Shown here: positions 1-6,764 of the stretch, piece by piece | Numbering within the stretch: position 1 is the stretch's first letter | Layout of the letters: each line of letters starts with the position of its first letter | From: an uncultured Eubacteriales bacterium | GTDB taxonomy: Bacteria; Bacillota; Clostridia; Christensenellales; Aristaeellaceae | Direction of reading: 5' to 3' | NCBI GenBank assembly: GCA_944349855.1 | Contig: CALVNS010000003.1 | Span: 43,883-107,882, forward strand | DNA length: 64,000 nucleotides | The notes under the pieces: model-generated | What the model was told of the DNA's origin: nothing | The model's input: only the letters and a program-made list of their open reading frames with translations | Database searches by the model: none | Position numbers and translations under genes: made by a program

Positions 1-522
1 CGCGTCCACGCCCACGGGATCCATCGGCGCGTCCTCGACCCCCGCGATGGAGGCGATGTGCGCGCCGACCTCGATGCCCCGCGCCGCCAGCGCCTGCCGG
101 CACAGCGCGCCCGCGAACACCAACGGCGCCGTCAGCCGTCCGGAGAAGTGCCCGCCGCCGCGCGGGTCGTTCATGCCGCGGTACTTGACGTAGCCCGCGT
201 AGTCCGCGTGGCCCGGGCGCATCAGCCGCTGCATCGCCTCGTAGTCGCCGGAGCGCACGTTCGTATTCTCGATCAGGCCGCACAGCGGCGCGCCGGTCGT
301 ATGCCCGCGGTACAGCCCCGACACGATGCGCACGCGGTCGGCCTCGCGCCGCGCCGTCGCCGTCGGGTCCTGGCCTGGCGCGCGGCGCGCCATGTCGCGC
401 GCGACCGCCTCCTCATCGACCGAAAGGCCGATGGGCAGGCCGTCCACGACCACGCCGATCGCCGGCCCGTGCGACTCGCCGAAGATCGTCAGTTGCAGGT
501 TATTCCCCCACGTCGAGCGCAT
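1..522 (-). CDS. aroC: Chorismate synthase, N-terminal 174 residues (cut by window edge)
   Basis: Chorismate synthase converts EPSP to chorismate using reduced FMN, the last shikimate step. The N-terminus reads MRSTWGNNLQLTIFGESHG, matching the family's invariant start (G-x-x-x-x-x-x-FGESHG), followed by D-G-x-P-x-G-L, a GRETA-like 'RREADRVRIVSG' stretch and 'RPGHADYAGYVKY', all typical AroC blocks. The ATG start (520-522) lies 20 bases inside the end of aroA, so the two are translationally coupled. The C-terminal half is beyond position 1. Last visible gene of the aro operon. Confidence 0.95.
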   Translation of the reverse strand, partial: MRSTWGNNLQLTIFGESHGPAIGVVVDGLPIGLSVDEEAVARDMARRAPGQDPTATARREADRVRIVSGLYRGHTTGAPLCGLIENTNVRSGDYEAMQRLMRPGHADYAGYVKYRGMNDPRGGGHFSGRLTAPLVFAGALCRQALAARGIEVGAHIASIAGVEDAPMDPVGVDA

Positions 523-1828
523 GCGTCATTCCTCCCAGCGATGCGTATTCCCGATAGAATGCGGGCGCGCTCTTGCGCACCGACTCCGCGCCCGAGAGCG
601 CCGTCCCGCCCTCGCACGACGCGGCCGCCACGCACAGCGCCATGGCGATGCGGTGGTCGTTCCACGCGTCCACCGCCGCCCCGTGCAGGCGCGCGCCGCC
701 CTGCACCGTCAGCCCGTCCGGCGTCTCGCGCACGTCCGCGCCCATCCGGCACAGCCCCTCGCGCATCGCCGCCAGCCGGTCGCACTCCTTGATGCGCAGC
801 CGCCCCGCGTTCACGATCCGCGTGACGCCCTGCGCGGCGCACGCGGCCACGCACAGCGCCGGCACCAGGTCCGGGATCTGCGCGGCGTCGATCGTCGTGC
901 CCGTCAGGCGCGACGGGTACGCGCACAGCGCCGGGCCGTCCGGACTGTCCGCCCAGCGGATGTCCGCGCCCATCGCGCGCAGCACCTGCACGACCGCGCG
1001 GTCGCCCTGCGTGGAATCGGGCAGCAGGCCCGTCAGGCGCACGCCCTGCGGCGCGCCGGCCGTCGCGCCCGCCACCAGGTAAAACGCCGCGTGCGACCAG
1101 TCGCCCTCGACCTGCACGCGCCCCGGCGAGCGATAGCGCTGCCCGCCCGGCACGAAGAGCGTGCGCTCATCCCGCCACGCGGAGCGCACGCCAAAGCGCG
1201 CGAGCATCTCCCGCGTGAGCGCCACATACGCGCCCGACTCCAGCGGCGTGGTCAGCGTCAGCGTCGAGTCCTGCGCGCACAGCGGCAGCGCGTACAGCAG
1301 TCCCGTCACGAACTGGCTGGACACGTCGCCGCGCAGGCGCATCCGACCGCCCTGCAGCCGTCCGTCCAGCGTCAGGCTGCCCGGGCCGTCTTCCCAGCGC
1401 GCGCCCATCGCGGCAAACAGCGCGCGGTATACGTCCTGCGGGCGCTCCATCAGCCGCCCATGGCCGATAAAGCGCACCGGCCCGCGCCCGTCCAGCGCCA
1501 GCGGCATGAAGAAGCGCAGCGTCGAGCCCGACTCGCCGCAGTCGGCCTCGCGCAGCCCAGGCGAGGCCGGAATGCCGCCGCCGCGCAGGCGCGCGCGCAC
1601 AAATCCCTCCTGCGCGCCGGAGAGCGGCTCCAGCGCGCAGTCCGCCAGCAGGCCCAGCGCGCGGGCGCAGCGCAGCGTGGCCTCGACATCGGCCGACAGC
1701 TGCAGCGGCGCGACCTCGCACGGCTCGGGCGCGAGCGCGGCGGCCAGCACCGCGCGGTGCGAGGCGGACTTGCTGGGCATCACGCGCAGCGTGCCGCCCA
1801 GCGCAGCGGGGCGAATGATGCGGATCAT
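500..1828 (-). CDS. aroA: 3-phosphoshikimate 1-carboxyvinyltransferase (EPSP synthase)
   Basis: Joins PEP to shikimate-3-phosphate. 442 residues, normal for the family. Visible hallmarks are the N-terminal substrate-binding 'PSKSASHRAVLAAAL' (Lys and Ser/Arg of the active site), 'CGESGSTLRFFMPLAL' in the PEP/S3P loop, and the C-terminal 'RIKECDRLAAM' with 'DHRIAMAL'. The ATG at 1828 was chosen because GGGAGGTGG lies just upstream and homology begins there; the frame is open further upstream. The PEP loop is the Clostridia-like ESGST form, not the GNAGTA of class I enzymes. It sits 34 bases after aroB and overlaps aroC. Confidence 0.94.
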   Translation of the reverse strand: MIRIIRPAALGGTLRVMPSKSASHRAVLAAALAPEPCEVAPLQLSADVEATLRCARALGLLADCALEPLSGAQEGFVRARLRGGGIPASPGLREADCGESGSTLRFFMPLALDGRGPVRFIGHGRLMERPQDVYRALFAAMGARWEDGPGSLTLDGRLQGGRMRLRGDVSSQFVTGLLYALPLCAQDSTLTLTTPLESGAYVALTREMLARFGVRSAWRDERTLFVPGGQRYRSPGRVQVEGDWSHAAFYLVAGATAGAPQGVRLTGLLPDSTQGDRAVVQVLRAMGADIRWADSPDGPALCAYPSRLTGTTIDAAQIPDLVPALCVAACAAQGVTRIVNAGRLRIKECDRLAAMREGLCRMGADVRETPDGLTVQGGARLHGAAVDAWNDHRIAMALCVAAASCEGGTALSGAESVRKSAPAFYREYASLGGMTHALDVGE

Positions 1829-1862: not shown

Positions 1863-2921
1863 TCAGAGCAGGGCCTCCAGCGCGGCCTGATCGACCTCGT
1901 GCGTCGCCGCGCGGCCGATGCGCTCGAGCACGACGACCTGCACGCGCCCGCCGGACGCCTTCTTGTCCAGGCGCATGGCGCGCGCGAGCGCCTCGCGCGG
2001 CAGGTTCGGGGCCTGCGTGGGCAGCCCATAGGCGCGCAGCACGCGCTCGATGCGCGCGGCCGTGCCCGGCTCCGTCACGCCCCAGCCCTCGCCCCAGCGC
2101 GCCGCCGCGACCATGCCCATGCACACGCCCTCGCCGTGCAGCACCTGGCCGTAGCCCGCGGCGTTCTCCACCGCGTGGCCCAGCGTATGCCCGAAGTTCA
2201 GCTGCGCGCGCACGCCCTTATCCAGCGGATCGCGGCGCACGTAGTCCGCCTTGAGCGCACAGCAGCGTGCGATCACCCCGTCGATGTGCGCCCACAGCGC
2301 CGCCCGGCCGCCCGCCTGCTCGATGCGCGCAAAGAGCGCCTCGTCGGCGATGCAGCCGTACTTGATCACCTCGCCCAGGCCCGCGCCAACCTGGCGCGCG
2401 TCCAGCGTATCCAGCGTATCCACGTCGATGAGCACGCGCTCGGGCTGATAGAACGCGCCGACCAGGTTCTTGCCGCGCGGCAGGTTCACGGCCGTCTTGC
2501 CGCCCACGGACGAATCCACCTGCGAGAGCAGCGTCGTCGGGACCTGGATCAGCCGCACGCCGCGCAGAAAGCTCGCCGCCGCATAGCCCGCCAGGTCGCC
2601 CACGACGCCGCCGCCCAGCGCGACGACGAAGTCCCGCCGCGACAGGCCCGCATCCAAAAACGCGTCGTACAGCGCGGCCAGCTGCGCAAGGCTCTTGCTC
2701 TCCTCGCCCGCCGGCACCGTGTACAGCGACGCCCGCGCGCCCGCCAGCCCCAGCGCGCGCAGCATCGCCTGCCCATAGAGCGGGGCCGTGTTCGTATCGG
2801 CCACGACGAGCGCGCGCCGCCCCGCGCACATCGAAAGCGCCTGCTCTGCCTGCGCAAGCAGCCCGCGCCCGATCAGGATGTCATAGCTGCCGTTCTGCGC
2901 CTCAACGCGTACGGTTTGCAC
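1863..2921 (-). CDS. aroB: 3-dehydroquinate synthase
   Basis: NAD- and metal-dependent cyclisation of DAHP to 3-dehydroquinate. 352 residues. The NAD-binding 'GGGVVGDLAGYAAASFLRG' and 'PRGKNLVGAFYQP', plus the metal ligands in 'GLGEVIKYG', 'FGHTLGHAVE' and 'HGEGV', are all present. Start is GTG at 2921 with AGAAAGGAGG ten bases upstream; the first 20 bases overlap the end of tyrA. It lacks any fused domain. Order aroF-tyrA-aroB-aroA-aroC places the whole early pathway in one transcript. Confidence 0.94.
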   Translation of the reverse strand: MQTVRVEAQNGSYDILIGRGLLAQAEQALSMCAGRRALVVADTNTAPLYGQAMLRALGLAGARASLYTVPAGEESKSLAQLAALYDAFLDAGLSRRDFVVALGGGVVGDLAGYAAASFLRGVRLIQVPTTLLSQVDSSVGGKTAVNLPRGKNLVGAFYQPERVLIDVDTLDTLDARQVGAGLGEVIKYGCIADEALFARIEQAGGRAALWAHIDGVIARCCALKADYVRRDPLDKGVRAQLNFGHTLGHAVENAAGYGQVLHGEGVCMGMVAAARWGEGWGVTEPGTAARIERVLRAYGLPTQAPNLPREALARAMRLDKKASGGRVQVVVLERIGRAATHEVDQAALEALL

Positions 2922-3753
2922 GGTTGTACGCCTCCTTTCTTGAAGAGGCCGCCGCCAGGCGCGCGCGCAGCGCCTCGCGCTCCCCGCCGCGCAGCAGCGC
3001 CACGTAGTCCTCCAGCTTGCCGATCAGCTCCTCCGTCTCCTGCGCCAGCGCGTCCCGGTTTTGCCAGAACAGCTCCGTCCACAGGTCCGGGTCCAGCGCC
3101 GCCACGCGCGTCGTGCCGCGGAATGACCCGCCCTCGAACCCGTAGCTGTCCGCCAGCGCGTCCTGCTCGCAGATCGCCACCGCCAGCACGTGCATCATCT
3201 GGCTGGTGTAGGCCACGCGCAGGTCATGCGTGAGCGGATCCGTGCGGATGACATCCGCGCAGCCCATGGCGCGGGCCATGCGCTCCACGCGCGCGACCGC
3301 CTGCGCGTCCTCGCCGCCCGAGAGCACCAGGATGTAGTGCGCGCCCACGAACAGCGAGCCCGTCGCGTTTTCGTAGCCGCCGTGCTCCTTGCCCGCCATC
3401 GGGTGCCCGCCCACGAAGTGCGCGCCCGGCGTCAGGTACGCGCGCGCGGCCTCAAACACCGGCCGCTTCACGCCGCACACATCCGTCACCAGCGCGCCCG
3501 GTCGCACGCGCGCGCCATGCGCGCGCAGGAAGTCCACGCATCCCTGCGGATGCAGGCACAGCACGATCACGTCCGCGCGCTCGACCGGCGCCTGCGCGGC
3601 ATCCGCATAGGCCGCCTCGACCACGCCCTCGCACAGCGCCGCCGCGCGCGTGTCCGGGTCCCTGTCCACGCACAGGGCCCGCATGCCCTCGAACCCGCGC
3701 AGCGCCTTGGCCATGCTGCCGCCGATCAGCCCCAGGCCGACGAAGAGGATCAC
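2902..3753 (-). CDS. tyrA: Prephenate dehydrogenase (TyrA family), no ACT domain
   Basis: Oxidative decarboxylation of prephenate to 4-hydroxyphenylpyruvate for tyrosine. 283 residues. Starts at GTG 3753 in a GTGA overlap with the aroF stop, giving 'ILFVGLGLIGGSMAKAL', a Rossmann NAD(P) motif right at the N-terminus. The catalytic block 'GGHPMAGKEHGGYENA' carries the conserved His and the family 'HPMAG' signature. It ends in a basic tail with no C-terminal ACT regulatory domain, so feedback may reside in AroF and in the leader. Cyclohexadienyl (arogenate) specificity cannot be excluded. Confidence 0.9.
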   Translation of the reverse strand: MILFVGLGLIGGSMAKALRGFEGMRALCVDRDPDTRAAALCEGVVEAAYADAAQAPVERADVIVLCLHPQGCVDFLRAHGARVRPGALVTDVCGVKRPVFEAARAYLTPGAHFVGGHPMAGKEHGGYENATGSLFVGAHYILVLSGGEDAQAVARVERMARAMGCADVIRTDPLTHDLRVAYTSQMMHVLAVAICEQDALADSYGFEGGSFRGTTRVAALDPDLWTELFWQNRDALAQETEELIGKLEDYVALLRGGEREALRARLAAASSRKEAYNRANRTR

Positions 3754-4763
3754 AGCGTGCGCTCCACGATCGGGGCCAAGGCGTGAATCTTGGCCACCAG
3801 CTGCGCAAACTGCGGCGGCGTCAGCGACTGCGCGCCGTCGCACAGCGCGCGCGCCGGGTCGTTGTGCACCTCGATGATCAGGCCGTCCGCGCCCGCGGCG
3901 ATCGCCGCCAGCGACATGCGCTCCACCATCCACGCCTGGCCCGTCGCGTGGCTGGGATCGACCAGCACCGGCAGGTGCGACAGGCGCTTGACCGCCAGCA
4001 CCGCCGACAGATCCAGGGTATTGCGCGTATACGTCTCAAACGTGTGGATGCCCCGCTCGCACAGGATCACGTTCTCATTGCCCGCGGCCATGATGTACTC
4101 CGCGCTCATGAGCCACTCCTCGATCGTGGCGGACAGGCCGCGCTTGAGCAGCACGGGCTTGCGCGTCTTGCCCAGCTCGCGCAGCAGGTCGAAGTTTTGC
4201 ATGTTGCGCGCGCCCACCTGGATGACGTCCACGCGCCGGTCGAACTCCTCCACCAGCGCGGGGCTCATGATCTCCGTGACGATGGGCAGGCCGCTCTCCG
4301 CGCGCGCCTCCTCCAGCATCGCCAGTCCCTCCAGCTTCAGCCCCTGGAATGCGTAGGGCGACGTGCGCGGCTTGAACGCCCCGCCCCGCAGCATCGACGC
4401 GCCGCTGGCCCGCACCGCCAGCGCGATGCCCGTCACCTGGTCGATCGACTCCACCGAGCACGGGCCCGCCACCAGCGCCAGCTGCCGACCGCCCACGCGC
4501 ACGCCGCTGCAGTCGATGACGCTCTGCTCCGGGTGGAACTTGCGGTTCGCCTTCTTGAACGGCTCCGACACCGGCATGACGCGCTCCACGCCCTCGCGCA
4601 TCAGGAAATCCGTCGGGTCCAGGCTCGCCACGTCCCCGATCACGCCCAGCACCGTGCAGTCCACGCCGCTGTTGCGCTGCACCTGCATGCCGCGCCCTTC
4701 CAGCTCCGAAATCAGCGAGTCGATGCTCTCCTCGCGCGCCTTGGGCTTCATGATGATGATCAT
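3750..4763 (-). CDS. aroF: DAHP synthase, type I-beta with N-terminal regulatory domain
   Basis: First committed step: PEP plus erythrose-4-phosphate to DAHP. 337 residues. Residues 1-70 (MIIIMKPKAREESIDSLI...) match the ferredoxin-like domain that gives Phe/Tyr feedback in type I-beta enzymes such as the Thermotoga one; the TIM barrel follows with 'VAGPCSVES', 'RGGAFKPRTSPYAFQG', 'LLKRGLSATIEEW', 'PVLVDPSHATGQ'. ATG at 4763; its Shine-Dalgarno is weak (GAGAGGG), unlike that of the leader peptide upstream. First gene of the operon, directly behind the attenuator. Confidence 0.94.
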   Translation of the reverse strand: MIIIMKPKAREESIDSLISELEGRGMQVQRNSGVDCTVLGVIGDVASLDPTDFLMREGVERVMPVSEPFKKANRKFHPEQSVIDCSGVRVGGRQLALVAGPCSVESIDQVTGIALAVRASGASMLRGGAFKPRTSPYAFQGLKLEGLAMLEEARAESGLPIVTEIMSPALVEEFDRRVDVIQVGARNMQNFDLLRELGKTRKPVLLKRGLSATIEEWLMSAEYIMAAGNENVILCERGIHTFETYTRNTLDLSAVLAVKRLSHLPVLVDPSHATGQAWMVERMSLAAIAAGADGLIIEVHNDPARALCDGAQSLTPPQFAQLVAKIHALAPIVERTL

Positions 4764-4820
4764 ATCCGCACCCTCTCTTCGTTTCCTTCGCTACGGCATG
4801 CGCCGCGCCCTTCGATCACG

Positions 4821-4859
4821 AAAAAAGAGGCCCCCGCCGCGCTGCGGCGAAAGCCCCTG
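4821..4859 (-). terminator. Attenuator terminator of the aro operon
   Basis: Read on the minus strand, AGGGGCTTTCGCCGC pairs along 15 positions (with G-U pairs) with GCGGCGGGGGCCTCT across an AGC loop and runs into a T tract. It lies 35 bases after the stop codon of the aromatic leader peptide and about 60 bases before aroF, where it can only act as a conditional terminator. Confidence 0.88.
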
Positions 4860-4893
4860 CATTCCGTGCGTATACATGCCCGGAACGGCTGCT

Positions 4894-4989
4894 TTACGCG
4901 CTGCGGCCGCTTTTTTGTGCGCCGAAAAAGCCGTAGCCAAAATAGCTATAGCTGTTAAATCGCACAAAATTGCGGCGCATGCCGTGCAT
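4894..4989 (-). CDS. Leader peptide of the aro operon, Phe/Tyr-rich (31 residues)
   Basis: A 31-codon frame with ATG at 4989 and TAA at 4894-4896. AGGAGG (4998-5003) sits eight bases upstream, a better site than that of aroF. Residues 8-22 read FVRFNSYSYFGYGFF: eight aromatic residues in fifteen (five Phe, three Tyr), followed by a short Lys/Ser/Arg tail. A strong terminator follows. The inferred role is attenuation: a ribosome waiting for charged tRNA(Phe) or tRNA(Tyr) at codons 14-22 would leave GCGGC (4906-4910) free to pair with GCCGC (4844-4848) in the terminator's 5' arm. Position and logic resemble the enterobacterial pheA leader, but no homology is claimed. It is not expected to have a function as a protein. 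Confidence 0.85.
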   Translation of the reverse strand: MHGMRRNFVRFNSYSYFGYGFFGAQKSGRSA

Positions 4990-5018
4990 CGTCCGTTCCT
5001 CCTGCATGTATTGGCATT

Positions 5019-5047
5019 AGTATAGCACCCGCGCGCGCCGATGGCAA
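5019..5047 (-). promoter_or_regulatory. Sigma-A promoter of the aro operon
   Basis: TTGCCA (5042-5047), a 17-base spacer, and TATACT (5019-5024) preceded by TG to form an extended -10 on the minus strand. The transcript would start about 20 bases before the leader peptide start. Confidence 0.82.
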
Positions 5048-5086
5048 GCGAAAAATTTTTTCTGCGCAAACGGAAAAAAAAGGGGC

Positions 5087-5115
5087 TTGACAGATGCGCC
5101 GCCGGGCTGTATAAT
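5087..5115 (+). promoter_or_regulatory. Consensus sigma-A promoter of aspS-gatCAB
   Basis: Perfect TTGACA (5087-5092), 17-base spacer, perfect TATAAT (5110-5115). Back-to-back with the aro promoter, about 40 bases away. Confidence 0.92.
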
Positions 5116-5121
5116 GCCCAC

Positions 5122-5421
5122 AACCTCATAGCAACGGCGTCGAAGGAGACGAGTACCTCGCGCATTTCATCAGGGAGGCCGGGCCATGGACTGAGAGCCC
5201 GGCTGAAATCCCCGCCCGGGAAAGAACGCTCCTGAGCCGGCCTGCCGACCGCGCAAGCATAGGCATGTCCGTTTCCCGCGTTAAGGGTTCACGAGGCCGC
5301 CCGGCCTCATTAAGTGGGCGATGACGCATGTTGGTGCCGCTCTCGCCAAATTGGGTGGTACCGCGGGGTATTTGTATTCCCGTCCCGAGTTGATGTGTTT
5401 CAACTCGGGATTTTTGTTTTT
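5122..5421 (+). promoter_or_regulatory. T-box riboswitch, specifier reads AAC (Asn)
   Basis: The T-box antiterminator bulge TGGTACCGCGG is at 5356-5366, followed by a terminator hairpin (CCCGAGTTGA...TTTCAACTCGGG, 5384-5409) and a T tract to 5421. In Stem I the lower helix GGAG (5145-5148) pairs with CTCC (5229-5232), and AGTA (5152-5155) is the loop-E strand. The opposite strand ends GAACG before CTCC, so the specifier followed by the usual purine is AAC (5225-5227), an Asn codon; no Asp codon GAC is available there. This fits the downstream genes, which make Asn-tRNA. An overlapping GAA (Glu) codon precedes it by one base. Confidence 0.9.
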
Positions 5422-5456
5422 CCCGCGCCGCCCGCATGATGAAGGAGGCTTCCCTG

Positions 5457-6764
5457 ATGAAGACGATGACCCCTGCCGACAGACCCTTCACCCTCTTGGA
5501 CGTGCTCGCCGCGCCCGAGGGCGCGACCGTCTCCTTTCACGGCATGGCGCACGCCGTGCGCGACCTGGGCGACGTGTGCTTCGTGCTGCTGCGCACCGCG
5601 CAGGGCGCGCTGCAGTGCGTGGTGTGCCCCCCGCTGACCCCGCCCCGCCCCGGCGACGCCCTGCGCGTGCAGGGCACGGTCTGCCGCGACGCACGCGCCC
5701 CCGGCGGCGTGGAGCTGCGCCTGAGCGCGCTGCAGGTGCTCACCTCGCCCGAGGCGCCCATGCCCGCGCCCATCGACAAGTTCCGCATGCGCCTGTCGCA
5801 GGACACGGACCTCGCCCTTCGCCCCGTGACGCTGCGCAACCTGCAAAAGCGCGCCGTGTTCAAGGTGCAGGAGGGCGTGGTGCGCGGCTTCCGCGAGTGC
5901 CTGCAGGACGAGGGCTTCACCGAGATCCACACGCCCAAGCTGGGCGCCAACACCGCCGAGGGCGGGGCCAACGTCTTTCGCCTGGACTACTTCGGCCGCA
6001 GGGCCGCGCTGGCGCAGAGCCCGCAGTTTTACAAGCAGACGATGGTCGGCGTGTTCGAGCGCGTGTTCGAGGTCGGGCCGGTCTTCCGCGCGGAGAAGCA
6101 CAACACCGCCCGCCACCTGAACGAGTACACCTCGCTGGACCTGGAGATGGGCTTCATCGACTCGTTCGAGGACGTGATGCGCATGGAGGTCAAGGTGCTC
6201 GCGCGCATCATGGAGGTGCTGCGGCGCGACTACGCCCCGCAGCTGCAGGCGCTGGACGTGCGCCTGCCCGCCTGCGACGCGATCCCGGCGGTGCGCTTTG
6301 ACGAGGCCAAGCGCATGGCCGCCGAGCGCTACGGCCGCCCGATCCGCGACCCGTTCGACCTGGAGCCGGAGGAGGAGCAGCTGATCTCCCGGCTGTTTGA
6401 GGAGGAGTACGGCTCGCAGTTCGTGTTCGTGACGCACTATCCGAGCAAGAAGCGCCCCTTCTACGCCAAGGACGACCCGGCCGACCCGCGCTACACGCTC
6501 TCGTTCGACCTGCTGCTGCGCGGCATGGAGATCACCACCGGCGGCGAGCGCATCAGCGGCTACAGCGAGCAGGTGGAGAAGATGCGCCGCAAGGGTCTGG
6601 ACCCCGCGGACTTTGGCTCCTACCTGATGATCCACCGGCACGGCATGCCACCGCACGGCGGGCTGGGCATCGGCCTGGAGCGGCTGACCGCGCGGCTCGT
6701 CGGCGCGCAGAACGTGCGCGAGGCGTGCCTGTTCCCCCGCGACACCCTGCGCCTGGACCCGTGA
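5457..6764 (+). CDS. aspS: Aspartyl-tRNA synthetase, archaeal type (AspS2), probably non-discriminating
   Basis: Charges tRNA(Asp) and, if non-discriminating, misacylates tRNA(Asn) with Asp as substrate for GatCAB. 435 residues, much shorter than the about 590-residue bacterial AspRS because the GAD insertion is absent. An OB-fold anticodon domain (to about 100) precedes the class II core: motif 2 'PVFRAEKHNTARHLNEYTS', motif 3 'GGLGIGLERLTARL'. ATG 5457 was chosen over ATG 5436 because AAGGAGG (5442-5448) lies between them. Discrimination is inferred from the Asn T-box and gatCAB in the same operon; the deciding residues were not tested. Confidence 0.88.
   Translation: MKTMTPADRPFTLLDVLAAPEGATVSFHGMAHAVRDLGDVCFVLLRTAQGALQCVVCPPLTPPRPGDALRVQGTVCRDARAPGGVELRLSALQVLTSPEAPMPAPIDKFRMRLSQDTDLALRPVTLRNLQKRAVFKVQEGVVRGFRECLQDEGFTEIHTPKLGANTAEGGANVFRLDYFGRRAALAQSPQFYKQTMVGVFERVFEVGPVFRAEKHNTARHLNEYTSLDLEMGFIDSFEDVMRMEVKVLARIMEVLRRDYAPQLQALDVRLPACDAIPAVRFDEAKRMAAERYGRPIRDPFDLEPEEEQLISRLFEEEYGSQFVFVTHYPSKKRPFYAKDDPADPRYTLSFDLLLRGMEITTGGERISGYSEQVEKMRRKGLDPADFGSYLMIHRHGMPPHGGLGIGLERLTARLVGAQNVREACLFPRDTLRLDP

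Follow-up and report, generated by a model that had tools for sequence, protein, structure and literature searches.

The aroF operon of an uncultured Eubacteriales bacterium (GTDB order Christensenellales) is preceded by a small reading frame dense in Phe and Tyr codons and by an intrinsic terminator, and the arrangement is, on sequence grounds, very probably a ribosome-mediated transcription attenuator, which we consider the best explanation of the locus. The case is carried by the predicted parts themselves, by their recurrence in relatives and by alternative pairings that can be drawn across relatives. The spread of such predicted leaders across the order and into further lineages of the Bacillota is new. 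In the following, "the window" denotes the whole stretch of 64,000 nucleotides that was analyzed.

The leader locus and the operon downstream

Flanked by aroF, which starts at 4763, and by an aspS2-gatAB operon of divergent orientation, the locus is situated on the minus strand (Table 1). The original prediction had named a promoter, an AGGAGG-led frame of 31 codons with eight aromatic codons among residues 8-22 and a 15-bp intrinsic terminator before aroF, and all of these were recovered, the frame exactly as described. Promoter-like sites number two in the leader region, one per strand, compared with 0.2 in shuffled sequences. With regard to aromatic content, the leader stands alone: among 264 small frames (10-60 amino acids, both strands of the window, each start preceded by a Shine-Dalgarno sequence counted) no other contains at least seven Phe/Tyr residues in 12 codons, the next two reaching four. 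The terminator (4858..4826) comprises 15 pairs, ten of them G-C, with a dG of -26.0, and is followed by a T-run to 4821. The fold of the whole leader has a z-score of -5.45 against shuffles, none of 200 being as good.

Table 1. Features of the leader locus and of the genes that it is predicted to regulate (window positions).
Feature	Position	Strand	Basis or remark
Promoter TTGCCA-17-TATACT	5019..5047	-	10/12 matches; the alignment shows both hexamers in L003 as well
Leader peptide frame, 31 aa, Shine-Dalgarno aggagg	ATG 4989 to TAA 4894	-	sequence MHGMRRNFVRFNSYSYFGYGFFGAQKSGRSA
Leader residues 8-22, FVRFNSYSYFGYGFF	inside 4894..4989	-	8 Phe/Tyr codons
Segment 1, partner of segment 2 (pause hairpin 1:2)	4961..4975	-	whole-leader fold and genus alignment
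Segment 2, 5' part, partner of segment 1	4907..4921	-	same fold and genus alignment; holds most of GCGGC
Antiterminator strand GCGCGTAAAGC, across the stop codon of the leader	4891..4901	-	10/10 pairs kept in 3 genus sequences
Terminator 5' arm	4844..4858	-	alternative partners: antiterminator or 3' arm
Terminator 3' arm (4840..4826) and T-run (4825..4821)	4821..4840	-	
aroF, 3-deoxy-7-phosphoheptulonate synthase, first regulated gene (predicted)	3750..4763	-	NF006421, 491 bits, cut-off 335
tyrA, prephenate dehydrogenase (start approximate)	2902..3753	-	NCBIfam prephenate dehydrogenase models, all below cut-off
aroB, 3-dehydroquinate synthase	1863..2921	-	TIGR01357 above cut-off
aroA, 3-phosphoshikimate 1-carboxyvinyltransferase (start approximate)	500..1828	-	TIGR01356 above cut-off
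aroC, chorismate synthase, 5' part; runs past window start	1..522	-	family model above cut-off

Beyond the window start (L236), the cluster continues with the rest of aroC, pheA (chorismate mutase plus prephenate dehydratase), aroK and a nitroreductase-like gene, the family matches of pheA and aroK lying below the curated cut-offs. The cluster therefore contains aroF, tyrA, aroB, aroA, aroC, pheA and aroK and includes enzymes of both the Phe and the Tyr branch. The initial designation as a whole shikimate operon goes too far, as neither aroD nor aroE was seen in the cluster. The anthranilate synthase N-terminal domain had no match in any of the three genomes of the genus, and indole-glycerol-phosphate synthase had none in the two genomes covered by that search (G002 lay outside it), while the controls for both searches were positive in 14 of 14 known genomes. 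A tryptophan pathway is thus likely absent from the genome of the window, likely rather than proven because that genome is 92.76% complete. Should the pathway be absent, Phe and Tyr would be the only aromatic amino acids served, and a leader with Phe and Tyr codons and without Trp codons is a fitting counterpart to its absence.

Occurrence of Phe/Tyr leaders in relatives

To the 154 aroF loci of the order (139 genomes), mostly the best-scoring among the matches listed and not a random sample, we added 80 named loci, the best 80 from a scan of species genomes, giving 234 upstream regions. Density was counted in 229 of these (151 order, 78 named), five being too short. A frame led by a Shine-Dalgarno sequence and with at least six Phe/Tyr in 12 codons occurred at the corresponding place in 112 of the 229 mostly best-scoring regions, compared with 1.7 in shuffles, and this excess was the largest among 190 amino acid pairs. 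The two sets behaved alike (order 77/151, named 35/78, shuffles 0.5 each), and the reverse strand yielded nothing at this threshold in either (0/151 and 0/78). Conservation of the dense frame, proposed at the outset as a check, is hence borne out, and the arrangement is not that of one genome, as leaders were found across many Clostridia.

For further analyses a leader was defined by a Shine-Dalgarno pattern and at least five Phe/Tyr in 12 codons, a detector that was set after viewing the first loci and misses leaders with other Shine-Dalgarno sequences, e.g., L022 and L024. It returned 130 leaders in the 234 regions, a count that includes related genomes, which are not independent; Phe and Tyr both occur in all 130. 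No leader at this threshold was detected in 104 of the 234 regions, including the five short ones. In the family of the window, 26 of 33 loci carry a leader. Among named organisms, bearers are Clostridium chromiireducens, C. tetanomorphum, C. tyrobutyricum, C. magnum, Pelosinus, Papillibacter cinnamivorans and Candidatus Ventricola gallistercoris, while none was found at threshold 5 in Brachyspira or Faecalicatena loci, and Flavonifractor plautii reaches a density of only 4. Genera g100 and g38 (family f5) are likewise devoid of leaders at threshold 5 at 13 loci with full upstream region. These loci (L033-L038, L040, L041, L043-L045, L008, L054) also gave no Rfam match up to E 0.01.

The 130 leaders have a median length of 29 amino acids and lie at a similar position, with a median gap of 34 nt to the terminator. 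Median pairwise identity of the peptides is 32%, with at least 50% in 494 of 8,385 pairs, and single linkage at 50% identity chains them into eight clusters. Judged from these values, the peptides appear diverged and partly alike, and the shared aromatic content alone could explain the likeness. A Pfam scan of five leaders returned no family up to E 1.

Terminators and alternative pairings in the set

An intrinsic terminator lies between leader and aroF for 123 of 130 leaders, compared with 26 of 130 after base-by-base shuffling of the 3' part. Pairing was analyzed for 118 leaders, seven having been dropped for lack of a terminator and five as near-duplicates or because of a spacer below 15 nt. 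Against dinucleotide shuffles, complementarity of the spacer to the terminator 5' arm plus loop has a mean z of -1.95 (p<=0.05 in 58/118), and that of the frame to the spacer, i.e., the 1:2 pairing, a mean z of -2.54 (p<=0.05 in 77/118). When arms were exchanged among leaders of similar length and composition, preference for the own partner persisted for the 5' arm (z -0.59, p 3e-6, n=110) and for the 1:2 pairing (z -2.24, 62 leaders), while the own 3' arm was not different from swapped ones (z 0.11, n=112). Furthermore, the RNA of the leader frame is more structured than synonymous resampling would yield (mean z -1.69, below -1.64 in 69/130 leaders, -3.06 in the window).

Folding with the RNA 5' of the ribosome edge removed gave a sequestration of the terminator 5' arm of 0.67 with the last Phe/Tyr codon in the A site and of 0.29 with the ribosome at the stop codon; the corresponding values for shuffled spacers were 0.50 and 0.35. 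A fall above 0.3 was seen in 76 of 118 leaders, compared with 17 of 118 when shuffle means are taken. With all Phe/Tyr codons averaged, a calculation that carries no shuffle control, the fall exceeded 0.3 in 87 of 118 leaders and was below -0.3 in none. With masking of the ribosome footprint alone, 42 of the 118 leaders showed a difference above 0.3 and two a difference below -0.3. In full-length equilibrium folds of the set, terminator formation fell only slightly, from 0.91 at the stop codon to 0.86 in the stalled state (p 0.02).

Two groups of relatives display the alternative helix in alignments. In the first (L094, L102, L125 and L127, four genomes) the antiterminator reaches up to 13 pairs, TTCGGTATG-GCGG with CCGCCATACCGAA, and occupies the loop as well as five of nine bases in the terminator 5' arm. 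When L118 and L114, which fit poorly, are included, 79.2% of cells pair in the six-sequence alignment, a value reached by 3/500 shuffles, with slid controls at 37-49%; two pairs are changed on both sides, which 122/500 shuffles equal. In the second group (A2, seven sequences) four bases of the 5' arm also take part in a nine-pair antiterminator, with 88.9% of cells paired (slid controls 34.5-43.1%). Covariation in this antiterminator is no better than in shuffles (281/500 reach it), while the terminator of this group does covary (2/500 reach). Taken together, the fold, swap and shuffle controls support the classical 1:2 / 2:3 / 3:4 design for the relatives as a set.

Alternative pairing in the window

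For the window, the original prediction had proposed that GCGGC pairs with GCCGC of the terminator 5' arm. GCGGC is indeed present at 4910-4906. The pairing, however, is lost in the genus relative L003, whereas that between GCGCGTAAAGC (4901-4891) and GCTTTCGCCGC (4854-4844) is kept in L001-L003, where most of the intervening stretch is changed. We therefore rejected GCGGC:GCCGC as the main antiterminator; GCGGC is chiefly a part of the 1:2 hairpin, and a single fold of the window still has it in the pairing first proposed. All ten pairs of the genus antiterminator are kept in the three sequences, nine of them invariant, and covariation is uninformative because the pairs hardly vary. The 1:2 hairpin (4975-4961 with 4921-4907) comprises 13 pairs, with 94.9% of cells paired in the three genus sequences and one double change from G-C to A-U between L001 and L003, which 151/500 shuffles equal.

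With the upstream RNA removed, sequestration in the window falls from 0.64 to 0.02. Its level is reached by 4/20 shuffles and by 5/20 in a second set (L002, identical spacer); the fall is matched by 0/20 and 2/20, respectively. For L003, shuffles reach the level in 10/20 and the fall in 3/20 cases. The duplex energy of the window antiterminator is no better than that of shuffled spacers (z +0.6), and masking of the footprint alone gives 0.10 in all states without change. In the full-length equilibrium fold the terminator prevails in every ribosome state (0.98), and read-through must therefore depend on timing. By these numbers, which are statistically weak and vary with the model, the window is the weaker case, supported mainly by the design of its relatives.

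Proposed mechanism and alternative explanations

Transcription would start near 5012, as placed from the promoter, and a ribosome would translate the 31-codon leader close behind the polymerase. With ample charged Phe-tRNA and Tyr-tRNA the ribosome would proceed to the stop codon and cover the antiterminator strand (4901-4891), the terminator (4858-4826) would form, and transcription would stop before aroF. Scarcity of either charged tRNA would stall the ribosome within codons 8-22, masking segment 1 and breaking the 1:2 hairpin; segment 2 and the stop-codon region could then pair with the terminator 5' arm, blocking the terminator and letting transcription continue into aroF-tyrA-aroB-aroA-aroC-pheA-aroK. 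We infer that the frame is translated, that ribosomes stall on it in dependence on Phe and Tyr, that read-through follows and that the operon is a single transcript. The frames, terminators and alternative pairings of the relatives speak in favor of ribosome-mediated attenuation by a Phe and Tyr leader, as originally put forward.

The frame might instead encode an arrest peptide or serve translational coupling to aroF, without codon-specific stalling, a reading that we consider improbable. A peptide pattern, xx[GS]xG[FYLCV], is common to 57 of 153 leaders (threshold 4), and 17 of 130 leaders, belonging to distant lineages, contain in frame a nucleotide core chosen by eye, TTTAGC nnn GGYTAYT. 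Ser at the third position of the pattern, though, is encoded by AGC in 33 of 36 rows, and synonymous resampling yields the core 6.2 times. A UAGC...GCUA hairpin, which the core can adopt, makes RNA structure the simpler explanation for it, and the apparent peptide motif was set aside because the codon choice suggests such structure. The core, present in L159, L169, L184, L204, L222 and others, may mark common descent.

Slightly less probable still is a leader that binds a protein or a metabolite, with the frame as a by-product: a long 1:2 hairpin with a terminator, taken by itself, would suit many attenuators, but the enriched amino acids are the end products of the operon, Rfam at gathering scores has no family in the window, and matches to the minus-strand leader up to E 10 are at chance level (E>=2.6). 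Control of aroF by a T-box, i.e., by direct binding of uncharged tRNA with the small frame being incidental, is the least credible of the alternatives. In the Bacillus cereus group, T-boxes are described as controlling the synthesis of tyrosine (PMC2494555), and at L194 one precedes aroF. At the present locus, however, a search of 4700-5450 gave no minus-strand T-box up to E 10, the only one found is on the plus strand in opposite orientation, and the aromatic density of the frame recurs in relatives.

This plus-strand T-box (5131-5390; 82.1 bits, Rfam gathering score 93) is divergent and precedes the genes for aspartate--tRNA(Asn) ligase, gatA and gatB. Read from the alignment, the specifier appears to be AAC (Asn). 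In L194 a T-box (5615-5877) takes the place of the leader before aroF and represents a different sensor. As a general substitute at leaderless loci T-boxes were rejected, one of 20 loci examined (L194) having one at gathering scores. Searching below the gathering score matters because the window's own T-box scores below it; 13 of those 20 loci, searched again to E 0.01, gave no Rfam family match.

Codon content and DAHP synthase isozymes

Under ribosome-mediated attenuation the codons of the leader would specify what is sensed. Both aroF loci were available from 15 genomes, 14 of which were compared; the remaining one, G287, is without a second leader. Both copies carry a leader (threshold 4) in eight of the 15. 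In all eight the Phe share is higher on the copy nearer to the AroF of the window (Wilcoxon p 0.008), with close shares in G012 (0.71, 0.67) and three of the pairs stemming from one genus. Summed over the eight genomes, the nearer copy has 43 Phe and 15 Tyr codons, the other 13 Phe and 34 Tyr codons. The second aroF of the window's own genome (L135, G000:C20) has the Tyr-rich leader MTYASRYAYVYLYCFGSTGCLRCA. Throughout the genus the second aroF (L135, L136, L137) has a Tyr-rich leader, and the tail of that of L135 folds alternatively to its terminator.

Trp codons in leaders are associated with trpC in the order set (8/13 against 3/61) and not significantly so in the named set (15/22 against 10/20), in a comparison that counts related genomes separately, scores weak trpC matches as absent and excludes 13 order-set leaders, the genomes of which were outside the trpC search, as well as one named locus. 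We give even chances to the proposal that the codon content of clostridial leaders constitutes an evolvable specificity code, with Phe-leaning and Tyr-leaning leaders on duplicated DAHP synthases, mixed ones on single copies, and Trp added along with the tryptophan pathway.

Comparison with known systems

Regulation of aromatic amino acid genes in Firmicutes is usually told via T-boxes and protein regulators. Enteric Phe leaders (pheA, pheST) respond to Phe alone and belong to other genes and another phylum; they likewise work by classical leader-peptide attenuation through Phe codons. The Phe leader family is absent among Rfam matches at the locus.

The arrangement had been called little described, and we found no report of a Phe/Tyr leader before aroF in Clostridia in the open-access literature searched. 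One precedent exists all the same, the uORFC-13-1 motif upstream of aroF in Acholeplasma, which is the closest published case (PMC8632094). According to that paper, the motif has in common with our leaders the site upstream of aroF, a small frame with Phe, an intrinsic terminator and proposed attenuation. It is set apart by its description: 24 sequences, from Acholeplasma and environmental samples only, with at least one Phe residue, and in the text consulted without mention of a Tyr run or an isozyme split. Attenuation of E. coli aroF had been hypothesized earlier, as the same paper relates (PMC8632094). Firmicutes His leader peptides (PMC2965389, PMC9413887) are likewise regular amino acid leaders, occur in some Eubacteriales as well, and differ in preceding histidine genes and being found in few lineages. 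The Leu-rich attenuator of Staphylococcus aureus is also an amino acid leader in a Firmicute and differs in that it belongs to the branched-chain operon of one lineage (PMC5794164).

Occurring at about half of the regions examined, the Phe/Tyr leader would make classical attenuation a major form of control at the pathway entry among Clostridia, of which many are uncultured, and its sequence would be a direct readout of the end products that each aroF copy may sense. The leaders provide a natural series of codon contents, Phe-leaning, Tyr-leaning, mixed and with Trp, in which the integration of several codons and several amino acids can be studied. In E. coli, AroF, AroG and AroH divide allosteric control among themselves, and the codon code, if true, would be the transcriptional counterpart of that division.
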